Shown one piece after another: positions 1,577 through 22,470 of a stretch of 22,599 bases of DNA. Source of the stretch: a virus. How positions within the stretch are numbered: the stretch's first letter is position 1; every line of letters starts with the position of its first letter. Where the stretch lies: the IMG/VR virus record IMGVR_UViG_3300024262_000271, positions 1-22,599 of that record; one strand, given 5' to 3'. The notes under the pieces are model-generated. The model saw only the letters and a program-made list of their open reading frames with translations. It made no database searches and was not told the origin of the DNA. The translations under genes and the position numbers were made by a program.

Positions 1577-1633
1577 GCTAGCACTGTTTTTTAATTTAAT
1601 ATTAATATCAACTCTTTTCTTTTGAGTGGTTGT

Positions 1634-1647
1634 GGTAAATATTTATA
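1634..1647 (+). promoter_or_regulatory. late promoter fused to the start codon of the homing endonuclease
   Basis: GGTAAATATTTATATG: TAAATA occupies 1636-1641 and the ATG begins at 1647, exactly six bases after the last A of the box. By the T4 late-promoter rule, transcription would start on the A of the ATG, giving a leaderless mRNA. No Shine-Dalgarno sequence is visible upstream. The core TAAATATTTATA also reads TATAAATA on the minus strand (1647-1640). Confidence 0.6.
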
Positions 1648-3305
1648 TGAAAGAAAAAATACAAGAAATAATAAAGAATATTGAATCAAGAAATTGGCGT
1701 AGAACCACAAAAGAAATAGAGAAAATTTATGACAATGTTATTACAATAACAAAATTTCTTCCATCTAATAGCAAACTAAATGAACGATTTTATTGTATTT
1801 TAAATGATATAACATCTCAACAACTTTGTAATACATGCCATAATAAACCAGTAAAATATACCAACGGTTTAAATGGTTATAGACAATGTTGTGGTTATAA
1901 ATGTTCATCAAATAATAAAGATATTAAAGAAAAAACAAAACAAACAAATTTAAGCAAATATGGTAAGCATCCACAACAGGTAAAAGAAATCAGGAATAAA
2001 TCTAAACAAACATGCCTGGAAAAATACGGAACAGAATTCGCTACACAATCAAAGGAATTCAAACAAAAAAGAAAAGAAACATGTTTAGAAAAATATGGTG
2101 TTGAAGAATTTGCTCAATCTAAAGAGTTTAAAAATCAAATACCAAGTATTGTTAAAAAATATAAAGAAACTTGTTTAAAAAAATATGGTGTTGATAACCC
2201 ACAAAAAAATAAACAACTAAAAGAAAAATGGAAAAAATCAAGATTAAACAATTTTTATAATAAAGTCAAAATGCAAACAACTTCAAGTTATACAACCATG
2301 TTTAATATCATATCATATAATGGGGTTAAACATGAGTATCAATGGCAATGCAAGCAATGTAATAATACATTCATATCAAGTTTAAAAGATGGGTCGAGGC
2401 CAATATGCCCCATATGTTTTCCGTCAGTAACATCTACACCACAAGAAGAGATATATCAATATGTTAATTCTTTTTACAAAAAAGAAATTATTAAAAAGAA
2501 TACAAGAACAATATTAGATAATAATTTAGAGTTAGATATTTATATTCCCCATAAAAAAATTGCTATTGAATTAAATGGTAATTATTGGCATGCTGAATTA
2601 GCTGGTAATAAAGATAGAAATTATCATTTAGAAAAAACCCAATTATGTGAAAAACAAAATATTCAGTTAATTCACATATTTGAAGATGAATGGGGTTTTA
2701 AACAACAAATTGTTAAAAATAGATTAAAGAATATTTTAGGAATTTCAAAATATAAAATACAAGCAAGAAAATGTATAATAAAAGAAATAGATGTTAAATT
2801 AAAAAATAAGTTCCTTAATAAATATCACATACAAGGTGAAGATAAATCAAAAATTAAATTAGGTTGTTTTTATAAAGATAGGCTAGTTGCTGTAATGACT
2901 TTTGGTAAAAGAAAAATTACTGGGGCTGATAATATGGAATGGGAACTTATTAGATATTGTACTATAGCTAATTTTAATTGCATTGGAACAGCTGGAAAGT
3001 TATTAAAACATTTCGAGAGAAATTATAACCCAAAACAAATTACTACTTATGCTGATAAAAGATGGTCACAAGGTAATATGTACTACAAATTAGAGTTTAA
3101 ATTAAGTCATATTAGTAAACCTAATTATTGGTACATGAATAAAAACTATTTAAAAAGACATCATAGAGTTGCTTTTCAGAAACACAAACTCAAAGATAAG
3201 TTAGATAAATTTGATCCTAAATTATCTGAATGGGAAAATATGCAAGTTAATGGTTATGATAGAATTTGGGATTGTGGAAATATGGTGTTTAAGAAATTAT
3301 ATTAA
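1647..3305 (+). CDS. homing endonuclease, PD-(D/E)XK/Vsr-like, with KYG repeats and zinc motifs
   Basis: A 552-residue protein antisense to the flanking structural genes. An N-terminal zinc-finger-like part has CxxC near residue 61 and a second Cys cluster near 81-86. Four repeats of the form T-C-L-E-K-Y-G then follow, with KYG near 104, 126, 149 and 179. This type of array occurs in phage endonucleases and probably contacts DNA. Another CxxC pair is near 235 and 254. The likely nuclease core is 'LELDIYIP' (D297) and 'IAIELNGNYWH' (E308), followed by 'QLIHIFEDEW'. The C-terminal 200 residues are conserved in such phage proteins but unassigned. It probably cuts phage lacking the insertion and spreads by repair. 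The ATG at 1647 is preferred over an upstream ATG at 1626 because the late-promoter motif overlaps the 1626-1647 segment. The gene is very AT-rich, which fits mobility. Confidence 0.8.
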   Translation: MKEKIQEIIKNIESRNWRRTTKEIEKIYDNVITITKFLPSNSKLNERFYCILNDITSQQLCNTCHNKPVKYTNGLNGYRQCCGYKCSSNNKDIKEKTKQTNLSKYGKHPQQVKEIRNKSKQTCLEKYGTEFATQSKEFKQKRKETCLEKYGVEEFAQSKEFKNQIPSIVKKYKETCLKKYGVDNPQKNKQLKEKWKKSRLNNFYNKVKMQTTSSYTTMFNIISYNGVKHEYQWQCKQCNNTFISSLKDGSRPICPICFPSVTSTPQEEIYQYVNSFYKKEIIKKNTRTILDNNLELDIYIPHKKIAIELNGNYWHAELAGNKDRNYHLEKTQLCEKQNIQLIHIFEDEWGFKQQIVKNRLKNILGISKYKIQARKCIIKEIDVKLKNKFLNKYHIQGEDKSKIKLGCFYKDRLVAVMTFGKRKITGADNMEWELIRYCTIANFNCIGTAGKLLKHFERNYNPKQITTYADKRWSQGNMYYKLEFKLSHISKPNYWYMNKNYLKRHHRVAFQKHKLKDKLDKFDPKLSEWENMQVNGYDRIWDCGNMVFKKLY

Positions 3306-3402
3306 TAACCTTGTTTATTAGTAGCTTTTACACCAAATGAATAACCAACAGTAAATGCATTAAGTATTGTTAGAACTGTTCTAACCCTGGACCCAGATCT
3401 GG
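3302..3402 (-). other. open frame without start codon, possible gene remnant beside the endonuclease
   Basis: Between the endonuclease stop and the 192-residue gene there is an open minus-strand frame, ended by TAA at 3302-3304 and opening after a TGA near 3404. Its last residues read VLTILNAFTVGYSFGVKATN plus five more, which looks like a hydrophobic protein C-terminus. It has no ATG/GTG/TTG in a useful place and is in the -1 frame relative to the upstream gene. It may be a remnant left by endonuclease insertion or a frameshifted tail. Chance is also possible at this length. Confidence 0.25.
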
Positions 3403-3948
3403 ATCAATACCACCAGATTTAAAAGCCGCGGCTTTATATATTTCATCAAATAGTCTATTTTCTTCTTCTGACAATTTAGAATCTAAATAATTTTTAAGTT
3501 CTTTTATTGCCTTGGGTCTTGCTCTTTTAGCATCTGCAAATATTTGTTTGTCTGCTGATCTTGGTTCACCTCTTTTTGTATAAAGTTCTGGACGTTGTTG
3601 TTTTAAAGCGCGTTCAGCAGGGGCGTTATTCAAATTATTAACTAATTGCATAAATTCTTGGTCGTTTTTTAATTTGTTAATAACAACATTAATTTCTTTT
3701 ATTTTTAGTTGACGTAATTTTTCAGCTTTCATGTCACCTAATTTTTCTGCCGCGTTAAAAGCTAATGTTCCAAGACCTTTTACTAATAAACTTTTTGCTC
3801 CTTGTAGAGCTTTAACACCAAAATAACCACCAATAACAGCTGCGGCACCAATACCAATCATAGCCCCAACACCAAAATCTTCATTAATTTTTACTTGGTT
3901 ATATGCTTCTTCTAAAAGTTGTTTATCATTTCTATAGTCATTTTTCAT
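3370..3948 (-). CDS. small protein with possible capsid-targeting N-terminus and Gly/Ala-rich membrane helix
   Basis: A 192-residue protein of unknown function. Its N-terminus, 'NDKQLLEEAYNQV', matches a motif shared by other proteins here and contains a possible prohead-protease site (L-E-E before A). Residues about 26-50 form a Gly/Ala-rich hydrophobic stretch (GAMIGIGAAAVIGGYFGVKA), probably a membrane or hydrophobic helix. The rest is charged and helical, with many Lys and Arg. It lies between sheath and tube, downstream of a terminator, so it needs its own promoter or read-through. A TAAATA box sits only two bases before its ATG, too close for the usual spacing. It could be an internal head protein released with the DNA; this is inference. 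Confidence 0.65.
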   Translation of the reverse strand: MKNDYRNDKQLLEEAYNQVKINEDFGVGAMIGIGAAAVIGGYFGVKALQGAKSLLVKGLGTLAFNAAEKLGDMKAEKLRQLKIKEINVVINKLKNDQEFMQLVNNLNNAPAERALKQQRPELYTKRGEPRSADKQIFADAKRARPKAIKELKNYLDSKLSEEENRLFDEIYKAAAFKSGGIDPDLGPGLEQF

Positions 3949-6655: not shown

Positions 6656-7366
6656 TTATTCAGTATCAAGTAGGTTAACTTCCATCTGATTGAAAACAAA
6701 TTGAAACGAACTTTCTACTTCTTCTGGATCTCGATAGTTATATCCAATGCCACCTAATTGTGTGATAAAAGCATTATTATAATTAAATTGTATAATATTT
6801 TTATCATACTCATCTTTCCCATATATAGTAATAATTGTTTGATAATCTAGAAAATCATTTGCCATACGTATTTGTTGAAAGTCAATATCTGAGACACCAT
6901 CTGGTACTGTTTTCTTTCCTGCAAGATTTTTTGCTATTTGATTTGCCTTTTCTCTTGCATGAGCTTTTTCACTACCATCTGTTTTATATTCCGCAAACTG
7001 ACTTGGCATACCACTATCTTTCCAATTATTCAATACATCAAGCCATTTCCATAGTAACCAATAGTTATTAAAAAAGTTATCTACATTAAAATTAACAGTG
7101 ATTGGTGGGTATGCAGCTTTTGTTTGAGATGTAACATTATATGTCTGTCCTTGAACACCCATAGAAACTGATGGAACATTTACTTCAGGTACTGGCGAAC
7201 CCCAAATCGAAAATTGTAAGGTTTCTAACTGAATAAGTTCTTCGGTTCTTTTTGACAATATTCCCGAATTACTATTCCTTAATATATTAGGCAATGTTAA
7301 AACGAGTAAAAATTTGTCTTTACTAGCCTTATTAAAAACTGATTGCATTTGACTAATTTGTGTCAT
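6656..7366 (-). CDS. gp19-like tail-tube-fold protein between terminase and sheath
   Basis: A 236-residue protein. 'FSIWGSPVPEVNVPSVSMGV' near residues 50-70, 'PPITVNFNVDNFFNNYWLLW' near 90-110 and a C-terminal 'TQLGGIGYNYRDPEEVESSF' segment are typical of tail-tube-fold proteins in T4-like phages. A role as a tube-related tail component (initiation, completion or baseplate hub) fits. The ATG at 7366 is chosen because it overlaps the terminase stop as TAATG, which indicates translational coupling. An in-frame ATG at 7381 would lie inside the terminase gene with no properly spaced ribosome-binding site. T4 has no gene between 17 and 18, so this is an addition to the T4 layout. The exact role is not known. 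Confidence 0.65.
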   Translation of the reverse strand: MTQISQMQSVFNKASKDKFLLVLTLPNILRNSNSGILSKRTEELIQLETLQFSIWGSPVPEVNVPSVSMGVQGQTYNVTSQTKAAYPPITVNFNVDNFFNNYWLLWKWLDVLNNWKDSGMPSQFAEYKTDGSEKAHAREKANQIAKNLAGKKTVPDGVSDIDFQQIRMANDFLDYQTIITIYGKDEYDKNIIQFNYNNAFITQLGGIGYNYRDPEEVESSFQFVFNQMEVNLLDTE

Positions 7367-9066
7367 TATATGTTTCTCCATCCTTGTTGTTGTAACTCTA
7401 ATAAGTTATCATCACCATAAGCCTCTGGATTAATTCCAATAAATGATGGCAGTGGCGCATCCGGATCTTTTTGATACAACGGATCTAGTTTAAAATACTC
7501 GGGAGCAACCACATCAAACGGCTCTATCTTGAGAGGCATGCCTTGCTCGTCTAATGATACGACCTCATAATACTTTTGGGCTACCACAGGCTCCAGAGCA
7601 AATAAAGCCCAAATTAAAGAGTGAACTCTATCATCATAAATATAATCCCCTGCCTTCTTTTTCCAAGTACCATTTGGATATTTAACAAAGGTCTCCAATT
7701 CTTGAACTAAGGCTATATCATAAATCTCTACCACTCGTAAACTATTTAACCAATACCTCATATTCATAACACCTTTATACTTTGAGTTGGTATGTGAGTA
7801 AATTCCTAATCTATTATAATATTTTTGTTTCTGTGGGGTATAATCTACAATATTATTGTAATGATGAGTCTCTTTTAATGCATCAATTACTTGGCCACCA
7901 CAGTTATTTCTTTCAATAAGTAGATTTGGTTGACCCCATTGATGTCCCATTTTGTTTAATATAGTTGCGAAATGGAATGGATCAATTTCATTATCTGCAT
8001 ATGAAGCAACAAGTCTAATATTTGTTAAGTCAGTCAGATCGAGTACATTAGCAACAGAAGAGGCTTGTCCAATACCTTCACCCACATCAACACCTATTGC
8101 ATAAAGATGTTCTGCATCAGGCTCTTCCCAAATTTTATACTTACCATCTTCTTGTAAGAAATCTGGTTCTCTACATATTTCTCTAAAATGTGTTAACAAA
8201 TCACTATCAATAGCAGTCTGACCTGTCTCTAAGAACACGTTTCCGAATTCCTGATCAAAACTCTTACCTTCACCAGCCAAAGCTGCTAATAGTTCTTCTT
8301 TCCATTTAAGACCACGACCCGGTATCTCCCACCAGTCTACTCGTTCATGATGCCAATTCTTGAAATTTTTATCTCCACGTTCAGCCCCAGTATAAATCTT
8401 ATGGAACATATTACCAGCACCATTCGGAGTACTAACACAAAAGATCTTAGTACCTCTATGTGATGAAACAACAGGAACAACAGCGTTCCAAAACTCTTTC
8501 ATCATACCTTCAGGAATAAAGGCCATCTCATCAACGATTAGTACGTTAGCCGATTCGCCACGTGCTGCACTACCAGTCGTAGTTGAAATACCTATACTTG
8601 AATCATTTGTAAATATAACTTCTGTTTTACCCCATTGTTTAACACCAGGTTTTAACCATCCAGGTAATTGTTCATAAGCCATTCGCACCCTACGAAGAAT
8701 CATAATTGCTGTATCTTCTTTATTAGCAACAATAATTATACGCTTGTCATGTTGAAAGCATGCAGTCCACAATGCGTATATTGTCATAAGAGTTGTCTTA
8801 CCCATCTGTCTTGATGATAATAAAATAACAAATCTATTTTTAGCTAATGCCTTAAGAACTCTTTTTTGGGGTTTATATAACTCTATCTTAGTCTTACCAG
8901 TTGCTAACGTTGTAATGTAAAAATGGTTAATAGCGAAATGTTTAATATCTTTAGCACATTTCTTTATTTCCTTAACCATAGTTGGTGTATATTCAAATTC
9001 AGCTTTCCCTGTAGGCAAATTTGGGTCGCCCATATAAAACTGATTTTGGTCTACTTTCTTATTCAT
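7366..9066 (-). CDS. gp17: terminase large subunit, T4 gp17-like DNA packaging motor
   Basis: A 566-residue ATPase-nuclease that pumps phage DNA into the prohead and cuts the concatemer. The ATPase domain shows Walker A 'SRQMGKTT' (residues 85-92), Walker B 'VLIVDE' (175-180, catalytic Glu180) and the coupling motif 'STPNG' (212-216). The RNase H-fold nuclease domain shows Asp327 in 'GVDVGEG', Glu385 in 'LLIE' and the Asp478-Asp479 pair in 'YDDR'. All key residues are present and the length is near that of T4 gp17 (610), so it is intact. Its start lies 14 bases after a predicted transcription start. It overlaps the next gene by a TAATG junction. Confidence 0.96.
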   Translation of the reverse strand: MNKKVDQNQFYMGDPNLPTGKAEFEYTPTMVKEIKKCAKDIKHFAINHFYITTLATGKTKIELYKPQKRVLKALAKNRFVILLSSRQMGKTTLMTIYALWTACFQHDKRIIIVANKEDTAIMILRRVRMAYEQLPGWLKPGVKQWGKTEVIFTNDSSIGISTTTGSAARGESANVLIVDEMAFIPEGMMKEFWNAVVPVVSSHRGTKIFCVSTPNGAGNMFHKIYTGAERGDKNFKNWHHERVDWWEIPGRGLKWKEELLAALAGEGKSFDQEFGNVFLETGQTAIDSDLLTHFREICREPDFLQEDGKYKIWEEPDAEHLYAIGVDVGEGIGQASSVANVLDLTDLTNIRLVASYADNEIDPFHFATILNKMGHQWGQPNLLIERNNCGGQVIDALKETHHYNNIVDYTPQKQKYYNRLGIYSHTNSKYKGVMNMRYWLNSLRVVEIYDIALVQELETFVKYPNGTWKKKAGDYIYDDRVHSLIWALFALEPVVAQKYYEVVSLDEQGMPLKIEPFDVVAPEYFKLDPLYQKDPDAPLPSFIGINPEAYGDDNLLELQQQGWRNI

Positions 9067-9178: not shown

Positions 9179-9185
9179 AATGATA

Positions 9186-9983
9186 ATGGCAAAAGACGAA
9201 TTAGCAGAAGCATATTCAAGTATCTATGTTGAAAAGAACAAAACAGTTCTTGAAGAGGCAGATACGAATAAAAAAATGACCGTGGGTAAACAAAAGTCCG
9301 GTGATGAATTGGAAGGTCCAACAAAGCAACTTGATGGTACCGGTCCTGATTCTGCTGACTTTGACAAAGCGGTTGAAGCTCCTAAGAGCATAAGCCCAGC
9401 TGGCAAAACAAGCAAAACAAGCAAGAAAAGCACAACGAAAGTTAATGAGGAGAGTACAGACATGTCAAGAAAAACATTCGAAGAACTTTACAATACAGTA
9501 ATGGTTTCTGAAGAAGACCTCGAAAGTGCAGAGTACAATGATGAAATGGGAGACTTTCCACCTTCTGGCGATGAAGGAATGGAAGGTGAAATGGGTGAGG
9601 AACGTGATGCACCGTCTATATTAGGCGAGATCAAGGACTTACTTAGCGAACTCATCAGCGTAATGGGTGGTGGAGAAGAGATGGATGTAGATGTCGATAT
9701 GGATATGGACCCAGCAGAAGAAGGTGGCTTCGGTGAAGCAACTTCTGAACCTGAACCAAGACCATTAACAACTACAGTATCACAGCTTCAATTACCTAGC
9801 CGTAAACTTGGAGGACCTGGAACAACGGTTGTCAAGAAGAAAGCTAGTGGAGCAGCCGCTACTAAAAAGCACAATGGTGAACTAGAAGCAGCACCTGCAG
9901 GATTCAAGCACGATAAGAGCAAGATGAAAGTAGATGGTTCTGGAGCAGCAGTTCAAGGCAACAATCAAAGCGCATTTGAATAA
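9186..9983 (+). CDS. acidic low-complexity phage protein with possible capsid-targeting N-terminus
   Basis: A 265-residue protein of unknown function. It starts 'MAKDELAEAYSS', with a possible prohead-protease site (L-A-E before A) and a second candidate at 'TVLEEA'. A Lys/Ser/Thr linker follows, then a very acidic Met/Gly/Asp/Glu region around residues 110-190 with a short hydrophobic helix 'ILGEIKDLLSELISVMGGG', then a basic Gly/Ala/Lys tail. The composition resembles head core or internal proteins of T4-like phages. The coding sequence is noticeably richer in G and C than its neighbours, which may reflect strong expression. It is monocistronic: own late promoter upstream, strong terminator downstream. 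A scaffold or internal head role is inference. Confidence 0.7.
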   Translation: MAKDELAEAYSSIYVEKNKTVLEEADTNKKMTVGKQKSGDELEGPTKQLDGTGPDSADFDKAVEAPKSISPAGKTSKTSKKSTTKVNEESTDMSRKTFEELYNTVMVSEEDLESAEYNDEMGDFPPSGDEGMEGEMGEERDAPSILGEIKDLLSELISVMGGGEEMDVDVDMDMDPAEEGGFGEATSEPEPRPLTTTVSQLQLPSRKLGGPGTTVVKKKASGAAATKKHNGELEAAPAGFKHDKSKMKVDGSGAAVQGNNQSAFE

Positions 9984-10057: not shown

Positions 10058-10071
10058 GTTAAATAATTACA
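10058..10071 (+). promoter_or_regulatory. late promoter fused to the start codon of the nucleotidyltransferase gene
   Basis: GGTTAAATAATTACATG: TAAATA at 10060-10065, and the ATG starts at 10071, six bases after the last A of the box. The predicted +1 is the A of the ATG, with no Shine-Dalgarno. It sits just after a strong terminator, so the downstream gene pair needs a promoter here. Confidence 0.6.
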
Positions 10072-11993
10072 TGAATGATAGATTTGATAATTATATGAAT
10101 GGAGTGCTTCACAGTGAATCGACCATTCTAGAAGATATCCAAACAACAACAATACCTAGAAATTCTTTAGATCCAGTAGTTTTTCAATATACAGCTGATG
10201 GACCACCTTCAATGCAAGGACAAATTGCAACACAAATATTAGGTGACCTACAAGGCTTAGATAGAATTACTGCTATTAGAGATTTTTATGTTACTGGGCC
10301 TATATTGGATTATAACTGGAATGAAAAATCACCTATAGATGTTAAAATATTTGTCGATCCTGAAAATATGGATGATATAACAACTGAGAATGTTTATACT
10401 TATATTAAACTTGTAAACGCAAGAATGGGTACGGGTACAACACATCCTATATTTTATTATGTTATACAAGCTACGGAAAATGATCCAGCTAAAGAAAAAG
10501 CGGCTTATGACCTAGCAAATGAAAGATGGTTAAAAGAACCAAAGCCAAAGTACATCGGTGAATCGATTATTGACTATGCTCATAAATCACTTGACCCTAA
10601 ACTTTGGGACCTTTCAAAAGATCCAATATCCCTTAGACCTGATGTAAAGGATGAGATAATAAAACATCTTAAGGATTACTTTGGTAATAAATTTTCAAAG
10701 TATGTTGACGAGCTTCATATTACAGGTTCTATTGGAACTCAGCAATGGAAAAGTGATACCGATATAGATATTCATATTGTTCCAAAAAATATAAAAGCTA
10801 ATATGGCAGAGTATGAAGAGGCCAGAAGTAAGATCAAACATGACTTTGATAATAAAGGTATTACAATAGCAGGGCATCCATATGAGGTTTATTTACAATT
10901 AGATCCTGAGCAAGAAAAACGCGGCGACTCTAGTTATAGTGTTCTTGACGACAAATGGATTAAAATGCCTTTCTCGCTTTCAGATGATTTTGACCCTGAT
11001 GTAGAATTCGCTTATCTTAAAAAAGATCTAAGTGGAATATTTAAATCTATGGATTCAGCACTTGGTGAACTTCGTAGAGACTTAGTTGACTATGATATTA
11101 TTGATGACTATGTAGGACATCTTGAACCTGCTGAAAAGACATTCCTTAAAGATAAGCTTAAAGTTAAGTTACAAGAGATTGAAGATGATATGGCTAAGCT
11201 TATTAAGTATAAGACAAAATATCATGGCGCTAGAAAATCAGGTTACGGTCCAGAAGATCAAGAGAACGCTTGGAAAGAAGTTATTAAATCTAAAAGTTGG
11301 GCGCCTGGTAATGTTATGTGGAAGATGTTAGATCGTTATAAGTACGTTACATTAACCTTAGCTTTACAAAAGGTAATGAGAGAAGATGAAAATAAGAAAA
11401 TTGATCCTTCTGACATTAAAGATATTAAGAAAGTATTTAATTTTAAAGAGCATCACCAAATTCAAGAAAGAGCTCCAAGAGTTCATAGAAATTCTAAAAG
11501 AAAAAATAGGGGCAAGCCAACTGAGCCCTTTAAACCAACTGTTGGATCTATAGCTCAAGCTAAAGGTAAGAATAGATGGAAAGATCCATTAGCCAAACAT
11601 AGTATGGTAGCAGCTCGCGGAACAAACAGACAGTCTATGGATCAAGTCTCTCAATCAGATAGACTCGATAAGTTTTCAAGAAACTTACCATATGCAGAAA
11701 GAATTTTAGATATTGCAAAAGACGCACAAGCCGGCTCATGGAAATTAACTCAACGTCAGGTATTAGAAATAGCTGAGAAGTATGGAGTTAAAGTTCCAGA
11801 TATGGAAAATAGAATTAAGAAACTTGGTAAGACTGGAATTGTTCTTTTCAGACGATCACCTAAAAAGCTTTTATTAATGAAAACAGCAAGTACTGTAAGG
11901 GGGAATGTTTCTCCAGGTAAGAAATCAAAAGCTGGTCTTAAGAAAGCTTTCAAAATGCCAAGTTTTAAAACGAATTTTAGAAAGAGTAAATAA
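10071..11993 (+). CDS. nucleotidyltransferase-fold protein with two tandem domains
   Basis: A 640-residue protein. The second domain has the Pol-beta-superfamily signature 'TGSIGTQQWKSDTDIDIHIV' (residues 218-237), where Gly-Ser and the Asp-x-Asp (DTDID) would bind nucleotide and metal. A first, degenerate copy occurs at about 75-95: 'TGPILDYNWNEKSPIDVKIF', with the same spacing but GS and DxD lost. An acidic/helical middle and a strongly basic C-terminal part (from about residue 450) follow. The latter may bind nucleic acid. The substrate is unknown; related folds transfer nucleotides to RNA, proteins or small molecules. The start is at 10071, because an in-frame ATG at 10026 lies in the terminator stem. 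It overlaps the next gene by TAATG. Confidence 0.75.
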   Translation: MNDRFDNYMNGVLHSESTILEDIQTTTIPRNSLDPVVFQYTADGPPSMQGQIATQILGDLQGLDRITAIRDFYVTGPILDYNWNEKSPIDVKIFVDPENMDDITTENVYTYIKLVNARMGTGTTHPIFYYVIQATENDPAKEKAAYDLANERWLKEPKPKYIGESIIDYAHKSLDPKLWDLSKDPISLRPDVKDEIIKHLKDYFGNKFSKYVDELHITGSIGTQQWKSDTDIDIHIVPKNIKANMAEYEEARSKIKHDFDNKGITIAGHPYEVYLQLDPEQEKRGDSSYSVLDDKWIKMPFSLSDDFDPDVEFAYLKKDLSGIFKSMDSALGELRRDLVDYDIIDDYVGHLEPAEKTFLKDKLKVKLQEIEDDMAKLIKYKTKYHGARKSGYGPEDQENAWKEVIKSKSWAPGNVMWKMLDRYKYVTLTLALQKVMREDENKKIDPSDIKDIKKVFNFKEHHQIQERAPRVHRNSKRKNRGKPTEPFKPTVGSIAQAKGKNRWKDPLAKHSMVAARGTNRQSMDQVSQSDRLDKFSRNLPYAERILDIAKDAQAGSWKLTQRQVLEIAEKYGVKVPDMENRIKKLGKTGIVLFRRSPKKLLLMKTASTVRGNVSPGKKSKAGLKKAFKMPSFKTNFRKSK

Positions 11994-12835
11994 TGGCAAG
12001 ATGTGGAAGAAATCCAAAAGATAATTGGGAATCAATAAGATACCTAAATAAATCAGAAGCTAGTAATGAACAAGCTATCTTTGCTTCGTACTGGGAAGAA
12101 TTAACCAACCTATATGGAGTTAGAGTTGAATATTATCTTTATAACTATTCTTTAACAGGTCATGATTACCTTTACGGAGAAGAAACAACAGCATCATATT
12201 CTGGTCCATTTAACATGAACGTATTAATTGATATTCCAGATGAAGCTATTCTATTATCTAAATTTGGTTTGCAAACAGAATCTGATTTTACTGCTATCAT
12301 TCCTATTGTAACTTTCCAAGATGTATTTGGAGTAGGGGCAGAACCTAAATCACAAGACGTTGTTAGGTTAATTGAATCTGGTTGGTCTACAGATGAGTTA
12401 CCCCCATCGGGTGGGGAAGTATTAAGTGAGTTATGCACAATGACTAGTCCTATCTCTCCAGCTACTTTATTCTATACAGTCTCTGATAAGGATTGGGTTC
12501 GTTGTCCTAGGCTTTATGAAATCACTGAAAGAAATTGGCAAGACAATTCGATGGGTGTTAATACCTTACAAGGTCATTATGTTTGGATCATAAGAGGTAA
12601 AAGATTTGATTATAGTTACCAACCAGGCCTTACACCAGAATGTAAAGAAGGTGTTGTATCTGATGAAACAACTGATGTTGGAATTCTTTCGGGTGGAACA
12701 CAAGACCCATCATTACAAGATCCACAACCTGAGAAACCTTATTCAGATAACACTACAGAAGATAGTGATGAAAATATTTGGGATTATGATGTAGGTGATG
12801 AGACTAGAGATGATGATGTATACGGCGAGTATTAA
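11993..12835 (+). CDS. possible neck/head-completion protein, gp14-like pattern
   Basis: A 280-residue protein coupled to the preceding gene by TAATG. The order of features 'YWEELTNLYGVRVEYYLYNY' (about residues 31-50), 'LYGEETTASYSGPFNMNVLI' (about 58-77), then 'LSKFGLQTESDFTAIIPIVT' resembles the T4 gp14 neck protein family: 'Y-G-V-x-V' near the N-terminus, a skewed edge strand and an 'FG...D/E-x-T' strand. The C-terminal 60 residues are acidic and low-complexity. Gp14 joins head to tail after packaging, and neck genes lie near the terminase in T4-like genomes, which agrees with the location. The similarity is recalled by eye and could be wrong. Confidence 0.5.
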   Translation: MARCGRNPKDNWESIRYLNKSEASNEQAIFASYWEELTNLYGVRVEYYLYNYSLTGHDYLYGEETTASYSGPFNMNVLIDIPDEAILLSKFGLQTESDFTAIIPIVTFQDVFGVGAEPKSQDVVRLIESGWSTDELPPSGGEVLSELCTMTSPISPATLFYTVSDKDWVRCPRLYEITERNWQDNSMGVNTLQGHYVWIIRGKRFDYSYQPGLTPECKEGVVSDETTDVGILSGGTQDPSLQDPQPEKPYSDNTTEDSDENIWDYDVGDETRDDDVYGEY

Positions 12836-13146
12836 AGCAGTTTAATAAAAGCATCTTCTTTTGTTATTTCTTTATATAACGGACCGGGGCCATTACCATC
12901 ATATTTTTCATTCTTCCAATTATCAAAATTGTAATAATTCTTTTTCTGTGTTAAAGCCCATTTATCATTACTTGGCACATTACTACCAACAAACTTCCAA
13001 CCCAACGTGGTAGATTTATAAATTCTCCAATAAACAATATTGCGGCTGGTTGTAATAAAATATGGGTTCCCATAATCATAATCAGGTGTTTGATCTATTA
13101 AAAGATATGTTGTTTTTTTAACCGAAGATGTATCTAGTTTTGCCAT
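12832..13146 (-). CDS. solitary member of the KEEAFIEML-tail small protein family
   Basis: A 104-residue protein of unknown function. It ends 'PLYKEITKEDAFIKLL', the same tail as the eleven-gene array at 20194-22599, about 7 kb away. 'PLYKEITKE' matches the member at 22019-22261 best, and the aromatic middle ('YWRIYKSTTLGWKFVGS') has the same style. It is the longest complete member and the most divergent in its tail. It starts inside the end of the upstream 48-residue gene (29-base overlap), and its stop overlaps the stop of the convergent plus-strand gene. A duplication moved between loci, or an old remnant array, would explain it. Confidence 0.75.
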   Translation of the reverse strand: MAKLDTSSVKKTTYLLIDQTPDYDYGNPYFITTSRNIVYWRIYKSTTLGWKFVGSNVPSNDKWALTQKKNYYNFDNWKNEKYDGNGPGPLYKEITKEDAFIKLL

Positions 13147-18286: not shown

Positions 18287-19522
18287 TTACCATTCAAATT
18301 TGGGCATTGGATTTCCTTCTCCATCGAGACCCGTTTCACCTTCTTCATCCTCTTCAGGATAAAACTCTTTTGATAATACATCATGTAAAGGTTCTATCTC
18401 TTCTGGAAGCCAACCATCATCTTCTAAAAAGTCAGCATATTTTGATGCTATCTTTTTAAATTGTTTGTTTGTAAGTAATTCCTTTTCAACTAACTCTGCT
18501 AACCTTTTCTTACCTAACTGCCCTGCTAATTGAGCCATAGGTGTATGAATACCATACTCATCCCAATCATCTTCATATGGGTCTGGGATTTTATTATAAC
18601 GACGTTTAACAAATTCATCCATATATTTTTGAATAACAGCAATAGTAGCATCGTTTGTTTCAGCTGCTCCCATTCCTGGAATCTTATTAAGCATTTGCCT
18701 CCATGAGGAATCTTTAAACAATTTTTGAACATCTCTACTTGCGTATGGGATTAATTCTCTAATGTTAAGTGCTTGAGCTTTAAGGTCTAATATAAAATTC
18801 AACCAACCCTCTTCATAACCTTGAAACTTATTGGCTACATGACCTGTATTATGTACATAATCTATAAACCTATCTAAACGCTTGAAGAAATCTCCTTGCG
18901 AACCTTGTTGAAGTTTAATAGCTTGATTTGTAATAGTAGCCCAATTCTGCCCACCATAAGCCGTATCCCATTCCCAATTTTTAAATACTTTTTCGATTGC
19001 TTCTAATGTCCAAGGCAAACCAGATGCTTCTGCTAATTCTATTACATTGGTTTCACGTTGTTTCTTATAATTGTTACTGTATGTTTTTTGCAAATAACCC
19101 ATTGAATCTTCTAACCCTTCAATAAATTGTTTTGGCTGAATAACAACACCAAATATTTTTTTAGATTCTCTACGAAGATAATTTATAATATCACGATAAT
19201 CATAATCATTGGCAAATGGTTCATAATTAACACCCTTTAACTCTTCGCCATAATCAGTTAACGTTTTCCATGTTGATGTTTGATTATCTGTATGTCTTAG
19301 TTCACGAACAATAATACTTTCAATTTCATTAATAATTGTTCTACTGTGCTGTTTTGATATTTCGTCAGCAGTAAAAGCATTAGCAGGATCATCTGGTGAC
19401 GGCATAGACATTATAATGTATGCATCTATAATGTCACTTTTAGCAATTTTTTCAGTTAAGAATATATGTTCTTTGAATTTCAAACTATTGTTCCAATGGT
19501 CTATTTCTTGTATAGGATTCAA
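18287..19522 (-). CDS. hypothetical phage protein with 'HNTG' region, start uncertain
   Basis: About 411 residues, function unknown. The most family-like part is 'YGGQNWATITNQAIKL' (about residues 188-203) followed by 'LDRFIDYVHNTGHVANKF' (about 219-236), a G-G-x-x-W/H-N-T-G arrangement seen in other phage and prophage proteins of unknown role. The C-terminus is acidic and ends 'MPKFEW'. The only upstream start is TTG at 19522, with no ribosome-binding site; the first ATG codons are at residues 38 and 40. The frame overlaps the preceding 91-residue gene by 38 bases. Coupled re-initiation, a later start, or a frameshift fusion are all possible. Confidence 0.65.
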   Translation of the reverse strand: MNPIQEIDHWNNSLKFKEHIFLTEKIAKSDIIDAYIIMSMPSPDDPANAFTADEISKQHSRTIINEIESIIVRELRHTDNQTSTWKTLTDYGEELKGVNYEPFANDYDYRDIINYLRRESKKIFGVVIQPKQFIEGLEDSMGYLQKTYSNNYKKQRETNVIELAEASGLPWTLEAIEKVFKNWEWDTAYGGQNWATITNQAIKLQQGSQGDFFKRLDRFIDYVHNTGHVANKFQGYEEGWLNFILDLKAQALNIRELIPYASRDVQKLFKDSSWRQMLNKIPGMGAAETNDATIAVIQKYMDEFVKRRYNKIPDPYEDDWDEYGIHTPMAQLAGQLGKKRLAELVEKELLTNKQFKKIASKYADFLEDDGWLPEEIEPLHDVLSKEFYPEEDEEGETGLDGEGNPMPKFEW

Positions 19523-19760
19523 AATCTTGCATTAAACGTTCGCTTATCCAATTGTATGGATCGCCTGTTCTCGCTTTAGCAGTACCATATGGCATTTCAC
19601 CCGCGTTGATATAGTAATTAAAAGCAATTTCATAAGCTTCATCTGAGAGTTCCCTATCTGGGTTCATAACAAATTCTTGTATTGCTGGATGGTTAAACAT
19701 TTTCTGTATCGCAACGTTTCCGTATGCTTCCATTAGCAATTCTGTGTCTTTATCTTTCAT
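19485..19760 (-). CDS. small protein with possible capsid-targeting N-terminus
   Basis: A 91-residue protein of unknown function. It starts 'MKDKDTELLMEAYGNV', with an L-M-E/A site like those of the genes at 3948, 9186 and 19909. The rest is helical ('SDEAYEIAFNYYINAGEMPY'). AAGGAG lies 7 bases upstream of the ATG, with a perfect TATAAATA just before it. If cleaved, its N-terminus could deliver the protein, or a fusion with the downstream gene, into the prohead. Confidence 0.75.
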   Translation of the reverse strand: MKDKDTELLMEAYGNVAIQKMFNHPAIQEFVMNPDRELSDEAYEIAFNYYINAGEMPYGTAKARTGDPYNWISERLMQDFESYTRNRPLEQ

Positions 19761-19895: not shown

Positions 19896-19909
19896 GATAA
19901 ATACTTATA
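19896..19909 (+). promoter_or_regulatory. late promoter fused to the start codon of the 19909 gene
   Basis: GGATAAATACTTATATG: TAAATA at 19898-19903, and the ATG starts at 19909, six bases after the last A of the box. The predicted +1 is the A of the ATG. No Shine-Dalgarno is present. Confidence 0.6.
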
Positions 19910-20199
19910 TGAAAAGTAAAAAGAACGAATTATTAAATGAATCGAGCTTTAATATATTACACAATACACAGGATATTTCAAAAGCAATCCTTGATGCAGA
20001 ACAAAATCTAAAAGAACCTAAACAACCAAATACTTTATGCAGAGCTAAAAATCTATTAGTTCACATTGAAAGTATGTTAAATCAAACGTGGTTAGTTCCA
20101 AATGAAAACGTTGCAGAACATTCAAACCCTGCATATGCGAACCTAAAACTTCAGATCAAAGATATGATTAAAAATATTGATGAATCTGTTGATTTATAA
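19909..20199 (+). CDS. small protein with possible prohead-protease site at N-terminus
   Basis: A 96-residue helical protein of unknown function. It starts 'MKSKKNELLNESSF', with L-N-E before S in the same position as in the other motif carriers. The central part 'LCRAKNLLVHIESMLNQTW' is amphipathic. The mRNA is predicted to be leaderless. Its stop codon overlaps the stop of the convergent array gene (TTATAA), so transcripts from both strands meet here with no visible terminator. Confidence 0.7.
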   Translation: MKSKKNELLNESSFNILHNTQDISKAILDAEQNLKEPKQPNTLCRAKNLLVHIESMLNQTWLVPNENVAEHSNPAYANLKLQIKDMIKNIDESVDL

Positions 20200-20427
20200 T
20201 ATTTCTATAAAAGCTTCCTCTTTAGTTATCTCTTCATTCCAGACTCTATCATTAGTCTTTTTATCTATCCAAACAAATTTTGAATTAAAAGAACTATTCC
20301 AATGACCAGATGTTCTAATGTACTGCATATAAGTACCATCTTCAAATACTTTATAGACAGTCGTTGGAGCTAAAATTTTAGTTCCACTGATCATCATATT
20401 ATATTGTATTGCATATTTAAATTTCAT
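20194..20427 (-). CDS. array member 1 (3'-most), KEEAFIEML-tail family
   Basis: 77 residues. N-terminus 'MKFKYAIQYNMM', a middle with 'RTSGHWNSSFNSKFVWIDKK', tail 'EITKEEAFIEIL'. It is the last gene of the chain; no array gene follows, yet its tail is intact, so the tail is kept for protein reasons and not only for the next gene's ribosome-binding site. Its ATG overlaps the upstream stop as ATGA. The function is unknown. Confidence 0.75.
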   Translation of the reverse strand: MKFKYAIQYNMMISGTKILAPTTVYKVFEDGTYMQYIRTSGHWNSSFNSKFVWIDKKTNDRVWNEEITKEEAFIEIL

Positions 20428-20666
20428 AATATTTCTATAAACGCTTCCTCTCTACTTAGTTCTATAAAAAATTTTGATTCTTTAATAGGTACATGCCAAT
20501 TACACCATTCATTCGTTTTGTAGTTGAGGTACTGCCAACGTTCAAATGGTTTACCAGTTCTAGAATCAAGTGACCTAGCAATTTCTTTTCTCCAAATCCA
20601 GGTATGGTTATCGTTATATGGATCTGTTAGAGTGTCTTTATAATATGTCCAAAAATCTTTTTTCAT
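20424..20666 (-). CDS. array member 2, Trp-rich
   Basis: 80 residues. The most tryptophan-rich member: 'HTWIWRKE', 'FERWQYLNYKTNEWCNWHVP'. Tail 'LSREEAFIEIL', with Arg replacing the usual Lys. ATGA overlaps join it to both neighbours. It has no cysteine pair, signal peptide or membrane helix. Confidence 0.75.
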   Translation of the reverse strand: MKKDFWTYYKDTLTDPYNDNHTWIWRKEIARSLDSRTGKPFERWQYLNYKTNEWCNWHVPIKESKFFIELSREEAFIEIL

Positions 20667-20869
20667 AACATCTCCAAGAAAGCTTCTTCTTTAGATATTG
20701 GAATTAGGCCGTCAGTCCAACCATCTACTGGGTTATCTAACAATGACCAAACACCAACTAGTTTAGGATTGAAGTTACCTGAATGAAACCAGTATACATC
20801 ATCTACCAGTTTAACCACTACTCGAACATCTCTCTTTTTTGTTTTTAATATATCTATAAAATATTTCAT
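20663..20869 (-). CDS. array member 3
   Basis: 68 residues. 'MKYFIDILKTKKRDVRVVVK' forms a basic start, then 'VYWFHSGNF', 'GVWSLL' and 'GWTDGLIP', then tail 'ISKEEAFLEML' (Leu for Ile). The W-x-x-x spacing of short beta strands recalls the other members despite little direct identity. ATGA overlaps on both sides. Confidence 0.75.
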   Translation of the reverse strand: MKYFIDILKTKKRDVRVVVKLVDDVYWFHSGNFNPKLVGVWSLLDNPVDGWTDGLIPISKEEAFLEML

Positions 20870-21156
20870 AATATCTCTATAAAGGCTTCTTCTTTAGTGA
20901 TTCTTTTAAAATTTTCTTTAATTTGTTCTTTAACATAAGTACGATCGTTGGGCCTGATATAATTCATTTTCATATATCTTTGAGGTCCCCATAAAATATT
21001 CCAACCACGACTCTGGTCCTGATCAGTATTCCAACCCCAGAGATAATCTCTATCATCATGTTCATATGGTTCACTATTATTGGTTTTAACCTGCCTGTAA
21101 ACGATACCAGCTTTCCTATGAACATAATAATTATATTTTTCTTTTTTCATTCTCAT
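20866..21156 (-). CDS. array member 4, longest of the array
   Basis: 96 residues. It starts 'MRMKKEKYNYYVHRKAGIVY', is rich in Tyr, Arg and Trp ('YLWGWNTDQDQSRGWNILWG'), and has an extra basic stretch before the tail 'ITKEEAFIEIL'. A second ATG two codons in is an alternative start; the first overlaps the upstream stop as TAATG, which favours it. Confidence 0.75.
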   Translation of the reverse strand: MRMKKEKYNYYVHRKAGIVYRQVKTNNSEPYEHDDRDYLWGWNTDQDQSRGWNILWGPQRYMKMNYIRPNDRTYVKEQIKENFKRITKEEAFIEIL

Positions 21157-21380
21157 TACAACATCTCTATAAAGGCTTCTTCTTTAGATATTTCAACATA
21201 ATCACATTCTTCTAGTGGGTCCATATTGGTATCTGCCACATGAACCCATTTGGAAGGATCAGTCCCCCAACTATCATAAACACATTTCTCAAGACCATTT
21301 TTTTTGCGGCACCATATTACCCTATGACCTTTAGCTATACCAATATTAGGGTCGCTACTTTTCCATATAAAATATTTCAT
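21156..21380 (-). CDS. array member 5
   Basis: 74 residues. 'MKYFIWKSSDPNIGIAKGHR', then 'VIWCRKKNGLEKCVYDSWG', then tail 'ISKEEAFIEML'. Its core 'W-x-R-x-x-x-G-x-E-K-x-x-Y' also occurs in member 8 (21792-22019), which suggests these two are closer relatives. It is joined upstream by ATGA and downstream by TAATG. Confidence 0.75.
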   Translation of the reverse strand: MKYFIWKSSDPNIGIAKGHRVIWCRKKNGLEKCVYDSWGTDPSKWVHVADTNMDPLEECDYVEISKEEAFIEML

Positions 21381-21625
21381 AACATCTCTATAAACGCTTC
21401 CTCATGAGATATTTCTATCATTGTATGAGTAGACAATCCATAATAAATCCATTTCCATACACCCATCGAATCAGGTATCCAATAATCATAAAATTTTATG
21501 TTCTCTGACCATGGTCGTTCATGCCATGGCCCTTCGATGGCCTTTGCTGTTTTATCCCGAAGCTGAGAATCTCTAAATAATAAAGGTTCGTTATCATATA
21601 ATATTTTGTTTTTATAATATTTCAT
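21377..21625 (-). CDS. array member 6
   Basis: 82 residues. 'MKYYKNKILYDNEPLLFRDS', a charged middle, 'FYDYWIPDSMGVWKWIYYGL', then tail 'ISHEEAFIEML' with His in place of Lys. ATGA overlaps on both sides. The function is unknown. Confidence 0.75.
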   Translation of the reverse strand: MKYYKNKILYDNEPLLFRDSQLRDKTAKAIEGPWHERPWSENIKFYDYWIPDSMGVWKWIYYGLSTHTMIEISHEEAFIEML

Positions 21626-21795
21626 AATATTTCTATAAAGGCTTCTTCTTTCGTGATTTCAAATATCGTAGATCCAGCTGCCGGATAATGTCCATAATAT
21701 TGCCAGTGGTTATTAATCCATACATAAAAACTTTTATGAGGACCCTCATAAACCATCTTAAGCAACCTTCCATACTCCGTTTTATAATATTTCAT
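21622..21795 (-). CDS. array member 7, shortest
   Basis: 57 residues: 'MKYYKTEYGRLLKMVYEG', 'SFYVWINNHWQYYGHYP', tail 'ITKEEAFIEIL'. As the smallest complete member it shows the minimum: an aromatic N-terminus, one W-hairpin-like segment and the tail. ATGA overlaps on both sides confirm that it is a real gene in spite of its length. Confidence 0.75.
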   Translation of the reverse strand: MKYYKTEYGRLLKMVYEGPHKSFYVWINNHWQYYGHYPAAGSTIFEITKEEAFIEIL

Positions 21796-22019
21796 AACAT
21801 TTCTATAAAAGCTTCTTCTTTGCTTATTTCCACATACCCTTGTTCTTCAGTTATACGTCTGCCGTAGCGTTCTCCCCCAAGTGGGTCAACCCATTCATCA
21901 TCATCTGCCTTATTTCCACCGCCTCGAAAGTAGGTTCTATAAATTAACTTTTCCATTCCATCTTCTCTCATAGCCCATATAGCCACATCATCGTTTTGTT
22001 TATTAATAAAATATCTCAT
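21792..22019 (-). CDS. array member 8
   Basis: 75 residues. 'MRYFINKQNDDVAIWAMRED', 'GMEKLIYRTYFRGGG', an acidic turn, then tail 'ISKEEAFIEML'. Its core resembles member 5. It is joined by TAATG to the upstream gene and by ATGA to the downstream gene. Confidence 0.75.
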   Translation of the reverse strand: MRYFINKQNDDVAIWAMREDGMEKLIYRTYFRGGGNKADDDEWVDPLGGERYGRRITEEQGYVEISKEEAFIEML

Positions 22020-22261
22020 TATAATATCTCTATAAAAGCTTCTTCTTTAGTGATCTCTTTATACAGTGGCCAATGCTTATTTTTCATTAAAACTTCATCC
22101 CACAAAGGCCTGCCGCCAGGATATTCTTGTATGTCTTCCCATAAATTAAAACTAATATTATCATTAGACCCCCATATATCCCAAGTATTATCAGGATGAA
22201 CTCTCCATACATAAGTTACAGGACCATCAACATTCATTAATTTTCTACAATAATATTTCAT
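22019..22261 (-). CDS. array member 9
   Basis: 80 residues. 'MKYYCRKLMNVDGPVTYVWR', 'HPDNTWDIWGSNDN', then 'PLYKEITKEEAFIEIL'. The extended tail PLYKEITKE is shared with the solitary member at 12832-13146, making it the best candidate for that gene's closest relative. It overlaps by ATGA upstream and TAATG downstream. Confidence 0.75.
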   Translation of the reverse strand: MKYYCRKLMNVDGPVTYVWRVHPDNTWDIWGSNDNISFNLWEDIQEYPGGRPLWDEVLMKNKHWPLYKEITKEEAFIEIL

Positions 22262-22470
22262 AACATCTCTATAAAGGCCTCTTCTTTGCTCATCTGTATT
22301 ACATTTATATGATCGGGATATGTTGATGGTCCACCTTCACCTGGTCCAGTCCATTTACCACTAGCAAAATAAAACCATAAATTATCTTCACATTTCCAGA
22401 TGCAAGTCTCGCGGTCGCCATATGTTGCGCGGTCGCCATATGTTTCTTTATAATATAATACTTTACTCAT
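22258..22470 (-). CDS. array member 10, with internal duplication
   Basis: 70 residues. The N-terminal part contains a six-residue tandem duplication, TYGDRA then TYGDRE, from an 18-bp repeat. Then 'CIWKCEDNLWFYFASGKWTG' and tail 'MSKEEAFIEML'. It starts MSKVLYYKE in place of the usual MKYY. It is joined by TAATG to the upstream gene and by ATGA to the downstream gene. Confidence 0.75.
   Translation of the reverse strand: MSKVLYYKETYGDRATYGDRETCIWKCEDNLWFYFASGKWTGPGEGGPSTYPDHINVIQMSKEEAFIEML
22411..22444. repeat. 18-bp in-frame tandem duplication
   Basis: GCGGTCGCCATATGTT occurs at 22411-22426 and again at 22429-22444, period 18. It adds six codons to array member 10. The copies are identical over 16 bases, so the event looks recent. 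Confidence 0.85.

Follow-up and report, generated by a model that had tools for sequence, protein, structure and literature searches.

Why should four proteins of one virus that are otherwise unrelated begin with the same kind of short, charged peptide? The question is raised by a 192-aa protein encoded at positions 3370–3948 (minus strand) of the stretch analyzed here, a 22.6-kb fragment of a virus record (22,599 nt, in the following called the window). Together with proteins of 265, 91 and 96 aa it starts with a peptide in which an initial annotation had seen a capsid-targeting sequence removed by a prohead protease. On the same fragment a terminase large subunit (TerL) of T4-superfamily type, a tail tube and a head-closure protein were identified, and an 849-aa protein looks like a tail sheath, judged by its position and sequence. 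TerL (7366–9066, minus strand) was recognized by profile and sequence matches and assigns the contig to the T4 superfamily. It is 71% identical to its counterpart in the closest relative, L002; for most of the other uncultured relatives the value is about 50%, and for the nearest isolates about 33%. According to these comparisons the source is a deep, uncultured T4-superfamily myovirus that is represented by a fragment. A homing/HNH endonuclease gene (1626–3305, plus strand; phrog_3339, E 1e-132) separates the tail tube gene from that of the 192-aa protein. The terminase gene of L002 (L002:4391–6603) is broken across two reading frames and contains additional sequence, which may be an intein or an intron.

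The four N-termini read MKNDYRNDKQLLEEAY (192 aa; from 3948, minus strand), MAKDELAEAY (265 aa; from 9186, plus strand), MKDKDTELLMEAY (91 aa; from 19760, minus strand) and MKSKKNELLNESS (96 aa; from 19909, plus strand), the start codons being predicted ones. In each of them, residues 6–15 include an [LI]-x-E directly before A or S, and all four tags lie within the first ~10–20 residues, close on [LI]-x-E and sit on unrelated bodies; BLASTP among the four proteins found no similarity. For the 34 genes of the window, residues 2–20 were compared with shuffled sequences and with internal 19-mers in 20,000 trials. [LI]xE[AS] occurs in four of these N-termini compared to a mean of 0.60 in the shuffles (P=0.002) and 1.10 in internal 19-mers (P=0.011). 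The fuller form [LI]xE[AS][YF] occurs in three, with means of 0.05 and 0.00, respectively, and none of the 20,000 trials reached this number. The observation of the initial annotation, L-x-E before A/S at the start of four unrelated proteins, is thereby confirmed and exceeds shuffled expectation. Bare [LI]xE shows no N-terminal excess over internal stretches of the window (10 vs 8.2, P=0.28).

Since the pattern was picked after the sequence had been seen, independent data weigh more. We therefore rely on 265 protein families from the window and related contigs, for which residues 2–31 were searched with L or I required before x-E. The [LI]xE[AS][YF]-type pattern was found N-terminally in nine families, whereas five internal blocks gave 0, 1, 0, 0 and 0 matches and the shuffles a mean of 0.7 and a maximum of 3. 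Seven of the nine come from outside the window, and at least two of these seven look like chance (a 549-aa protein at L083:7372–9021 and L092:11107–11907). When the position before the small residue and [YF] was left unconstrained, it was occupied by Glu in 10 of 36 N-terminal but only 3 of 53 internal matches. The surroundings of the N-terminal Tyr are enriched in E at −2, A at −1, I at −4, F at −3 and V at +3. In related uncultured viruses, too, the motif is found on families that are unrelated to one another. An N-terminal [LI]xE[AS][YF] is absent from T4 and phiM12, and so the AY form is not superfamily-wide; the isolate phiM12 shows no N-terminal enrichment of [LI]xE[AS] despite having gp21. 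No earlier description of the motif was found in the literature searched, the coverage of which was partial.

We favor, with a probability of roughly 0.6, the explanation that the four proteins carry N-terminal tags which bind the prohead core and are trimmed after [LI]-x-E by a gp21-type protease, as are the T4 head propeptides. The charged, amphipathic N-terminal helix with its aromatic residue would dock to the prohead core, and a gp21-type protease, active upon prohead completion, would then cut the tag. The body would be retained in the head and might be delivered to the host along with the DNA. The simplest cut in the 91- and 96-aa proteins would fall after E11; in the 265-aa and perhaps the 192-aa protein it would more likely fall at the [LI]xE that follows the Tyr, or both sites would be cut. 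The shared N-terminus likely predicts a set of head passenger proteins, and the tag system of this uncultured clade is likely a modified form of a mechanism already known. It counts against the proposal that [LI]xE is a short and common pattern.

The T4 protease gp21 cleaves after L/I-x-E (PMC9026906). The tag of the T4 internal proteins IPII and IPIII (MKTYQEFIAE/A, a slash marking the cut; that of IPI is related) resembles the window tags: it is short and N-terminal, is found on unrelated bodies and ends in [LI]xE. Residues 4 and 7 of IPIII serve mainly targeting, residues 8 and 10 processing (PMC9026906). In the T4 tag the aromatic residue precedes the cut, whereas in the window proteins it comes after the first [LI]xE. 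An aromatic before the cut, as at IPIII positions 4 and 7, is present for the downstream sites of the 265- and 192-aa proteins but not for the sites of the initial annotation. Similar to the window tags are also the propeptides of T4 gp24 (MAKINELLRE/S) and gp21 (MNEPQLLIE/T), with a charged start and [EQ]LLxE before S or T, 9–11 residues in. gp24 loses its first 10 residues, and the structure of gp21 indicates self-cleavage of nine (PMC9958956). Closest of the four in form to gp24 is the 96-aa protein with NELLNE/S. Profile searches did not identify the window proteins as homologs of gp24, a shell protein, or of gp21, the protease itself. In the giant phages SPN3US and phiKZ a gp21-like protease cuts after Glu at several sites per propeptide, and identical N-termini occur on diverged proteins; in these phages, however, the motif reads S/A-x-E, and the majority of propeptides are longer than 100 residues (PMC5694885).

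The protease on which this reading depends was looked for in the window and in its relatives. In the 22.6-kb fragment no capsid, scaffold or protease gene was recognized, and a PF03420 search for a gp21-type protease gave no match; as the controls of this search were equally silent and the record is a fragment, the missing protease and capsid genes are uninformative. Among 23 relatives, most of them fragments as well, PF03420 and PF07068 gave a match in only one. An S77 (gp21-type) protease (E 5.6e-33) and gp23 (E 9.5e-89) are encoded by the relative G023, and in the head modules of the clade the gp21-type protease adjoins gp22 and gp23. T4 positions H85 and S140, which we take to be catalytic, are conserved in the aligned clade gp21 sequences. 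Suitable sites are frequent in these proteins: [LIV]xE stands within residues 3–18 in 27 of 30 gp21 sequences, [LI]xE close to the N-terminus in all 49 of the gp22 sequences, and ENQExWC..[LIVM]xE in 26 of 37 gp23 sequences, where the site directly after ENQExWC is likely the cleavage site.

The exact register of the T4 internal proteins was found only in the relative L148 and is absent from the window. At L148:3055–4145 two neighboring genes with unrelated products both start with MKTFKQYFLES; the cut form MKTFKQYFLE/S is in register with the T4 tag, so that a T4-register tag exists in the wider clade. The first product is a GNAT acetyltransferase (E 3.8e-9). For the second, Pfam gave no match; in our reading it resembles ADP-ribosyltransferases. 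Other tagged candidates in relatives are cytidylyltransferase-like (G007), PcfJ-like (G023) and weakly SprT-like (L121). In phage C48C1 (L103:7293–18408) several mostly hypothetical genes have T4-like N-termini, for example MLSFKQFVSE, MITFKKYLEE and MKKFKQYIDE; their products are possible head cargo. The initial interpretation is partly supported: the N-terminal placement, the T4-like form and the protease with its sites in relatives hold up, and the exact position of the cut is uncertain.

This becomes evident from the 265-aa protein (9186–9983, plus strand), which is acidic and of low complexity and whose gene adjoins the terminase gene in divergent orientation. Its N-terminal region, codons 1–24 (9186–9257, plus strand), reads MAKDELAE/AYSSIYVEKNKTVLEE/AD, and a second, internal cassette, KTFEELYNTVMVSEE, is located at 9471–9515 (plus strand). 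Two codons upstream, at 9180, there is an in-frame ATG. A scan of viral contigs with the single protein gave no relatives; orthologs were found by their position next to TerL, and the protein belongs to a cluster of 48 members. The L002 ortholog (42%) has the N-terminus MNDKLADLYTTMISE/A. Among the four proteins orthologs are known only for this one, the search for the 96-aa protein having covered profile libraries only. The Tyr is present in all of 23 non-redundant positional orthologs, an invariance that is partly built in, as these were collected by a loose hydrophobic-to-Tyr pattern; Glu two residues before it is found in three. The downstream [LI]xE was no part of the collection pattern. 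It occurs at most 17 residues after the Tyr in 16 of the 23 orthologs, compared to a shuffle mean of 4.0, and none of 20,000 shuffles reached 16. With the Tyr and the downstream site kept and the upstream Glu rarely so, a downstream cut is better supported for this family. The site after codon 8 given in the initial annotation does exist, but VLEE/AD, after residue 24, is the better supported candidate cut of the 265-aa protein.

Judged by its sequence features, the 265-aa protein probably belongs to the prohead core rather than to the injected cargo. It is likened to core proteins on account of the second internal cassette and the acidic, low-complexity sequence, to which the conserved position by TerL is added; the likeness to gp22, gp67 and gp68 lies in features of this kind. 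The second cassette would fit a core protein that is cut at several places. In the short homolog L009 the equivalent of the internal cassette stands at the N-terminus.

For the 192-aa protein, the N-terminal peptide is followed by a glycine-rich hydrophobic stretch and then by predicted helices. The candidate propeptide of the initial annotation comprises codons 1–14 (3907–3948, minus strand), MKNDYRNDKQLLEE, with the cut before AY; a second candidate site, KINE/D, ends with codon 23 (3880). Pfam gave no match, PHROG only weak ones (best E 0.0055), and neither the viral contig scan nor tblastn of phage records found relatives. The AF2 model is poor (mean pLDDT 53.5). A G023 protein shares the LLEEAY start, has a comparable glycine-rich stretch and reads LLEE/AYSEVNE/G.

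The 91-aa protein (19485–19760, minus strand) has its candidate propeptide in codons 1–11 (19728–19760, minus strand), MKDKDTELLME/AY. It was without match in PHROG and Pfam and without relatives in the viral contig scan and by tblastn of phage records. Codons 1–11 (19909–19941, plus strand), MKSKKNELLNE/SS, form the candidate propeptide of the 96-aa protein (19909–20199, plus strand), which has no match in the profile libraries PHROG and Pfam. No nearby downstream site comparable to those of the 192- and 265-aa proteins was found in these two, and the site of the initial annotation is the best candidate cut.

Besides tagging with cleavage, three other explanations have to be considered. It is quite conceivable, although we would not bet on it, that the tagged proteins do go to the head, but serve there as parts of the core or scaffold and are degraded, instead of being injected as effectors. 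The 265-aa family, with its second internal cassette and several sites, speaks for this, as T4 gp22, gp67 and gp68 are likewise cleaved into fragments (PMC9026906). A repeated cassette of this kind is missing from the bodies of the other three proteins, however, and the tagged proteins of relatives include the GNAT enzyme. We regard it as unlikely that the N-terminus is an uncleaved docking helix by which the proteins are brought to the prohead core or to a different assembly (neck, tail, replication body), with Glu and Tyr retained for binding. Three observations would agree with docking alone. Near the N-terminal Tyr, the enrichment of Glu at −2 is approximately matched by that of Ala at −1 and Val at +3; in some members the cut position is occupied by N, T or D; and a T4 capsid-targeting sequence (CTS) whose position 10 is Asp still directs targeting but is not processed (PMC9026906). 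What speaks against mere docking is that each of the four window proteins has at P3 the L or I that gp21 requires, and that in the 265-aa family [LI]xE is over-represented downstream of the Tyr.

Rather improbable is, finally, that some or all of the four N-termini arose by chance, L-x-E being short, the starts predicted and the examples picked post hoc. The lack of N-terminal enrichment of the bare pattern in the window would agree with this, as would the lack of orthologs for a conservation test of the 192-, 91- and 96-aa proteins (for the last, in profile libraries only). The fuller pattern, however, far exceeds the shuffles and recurs in independent families.

Under the cleaved-tag proposal, peptides such as KKNELLNESSFN are predicted substrates of the clade protease. 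We further suggest, tentatively and with somewhat less than even confidence, that a recurrent head-loading signal of roughly the form [LI]-x-E-[ASCQ]-[YF]-xx-[VIL] exists on many unrelated proteins of the clade beside the classic T4 tag. If so, injected effectors could be recognized from their N-termini alone, and a short pattern would flag passengers of the head and proteins of its core among the many products of uncultured T4-like viruses that have no assigned function. The tagged GNAT, cytidylyltransferase-like, PcfJ-like and SprT-like candidates would then point towards host-takeover or counter-defense proteins that are delivered together with the DNA.

Some further features of the window were recorded. 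A sequence similar to the T4 late promoter, xTAAATA, precedes each of the four genes by at most 27 bases. It was discarded as evidence, since TATAAATA occurs at chance frequency in the window (6 vs 5.2) and the match nearly abuts the start codon of the 192- and 96-aa genes. A 641-aa protein (10068–11993, plus strand) gave weak nucleotidyltransferase matches below the cut-off, and its N-terminus, MNDRFDNYMNGVLHSES, is loosely tag-like. At 20194–22470 (minus strand) ten consecutive small ORFs of 57–96 aa abut or overlap by a few bases; their bodies are divergent, and they have a common C-terminus like xxEEAFIE[IM]L. A 104-aa ORF at 12832–13146 has a similar ending, ITKEDAFIKLL.
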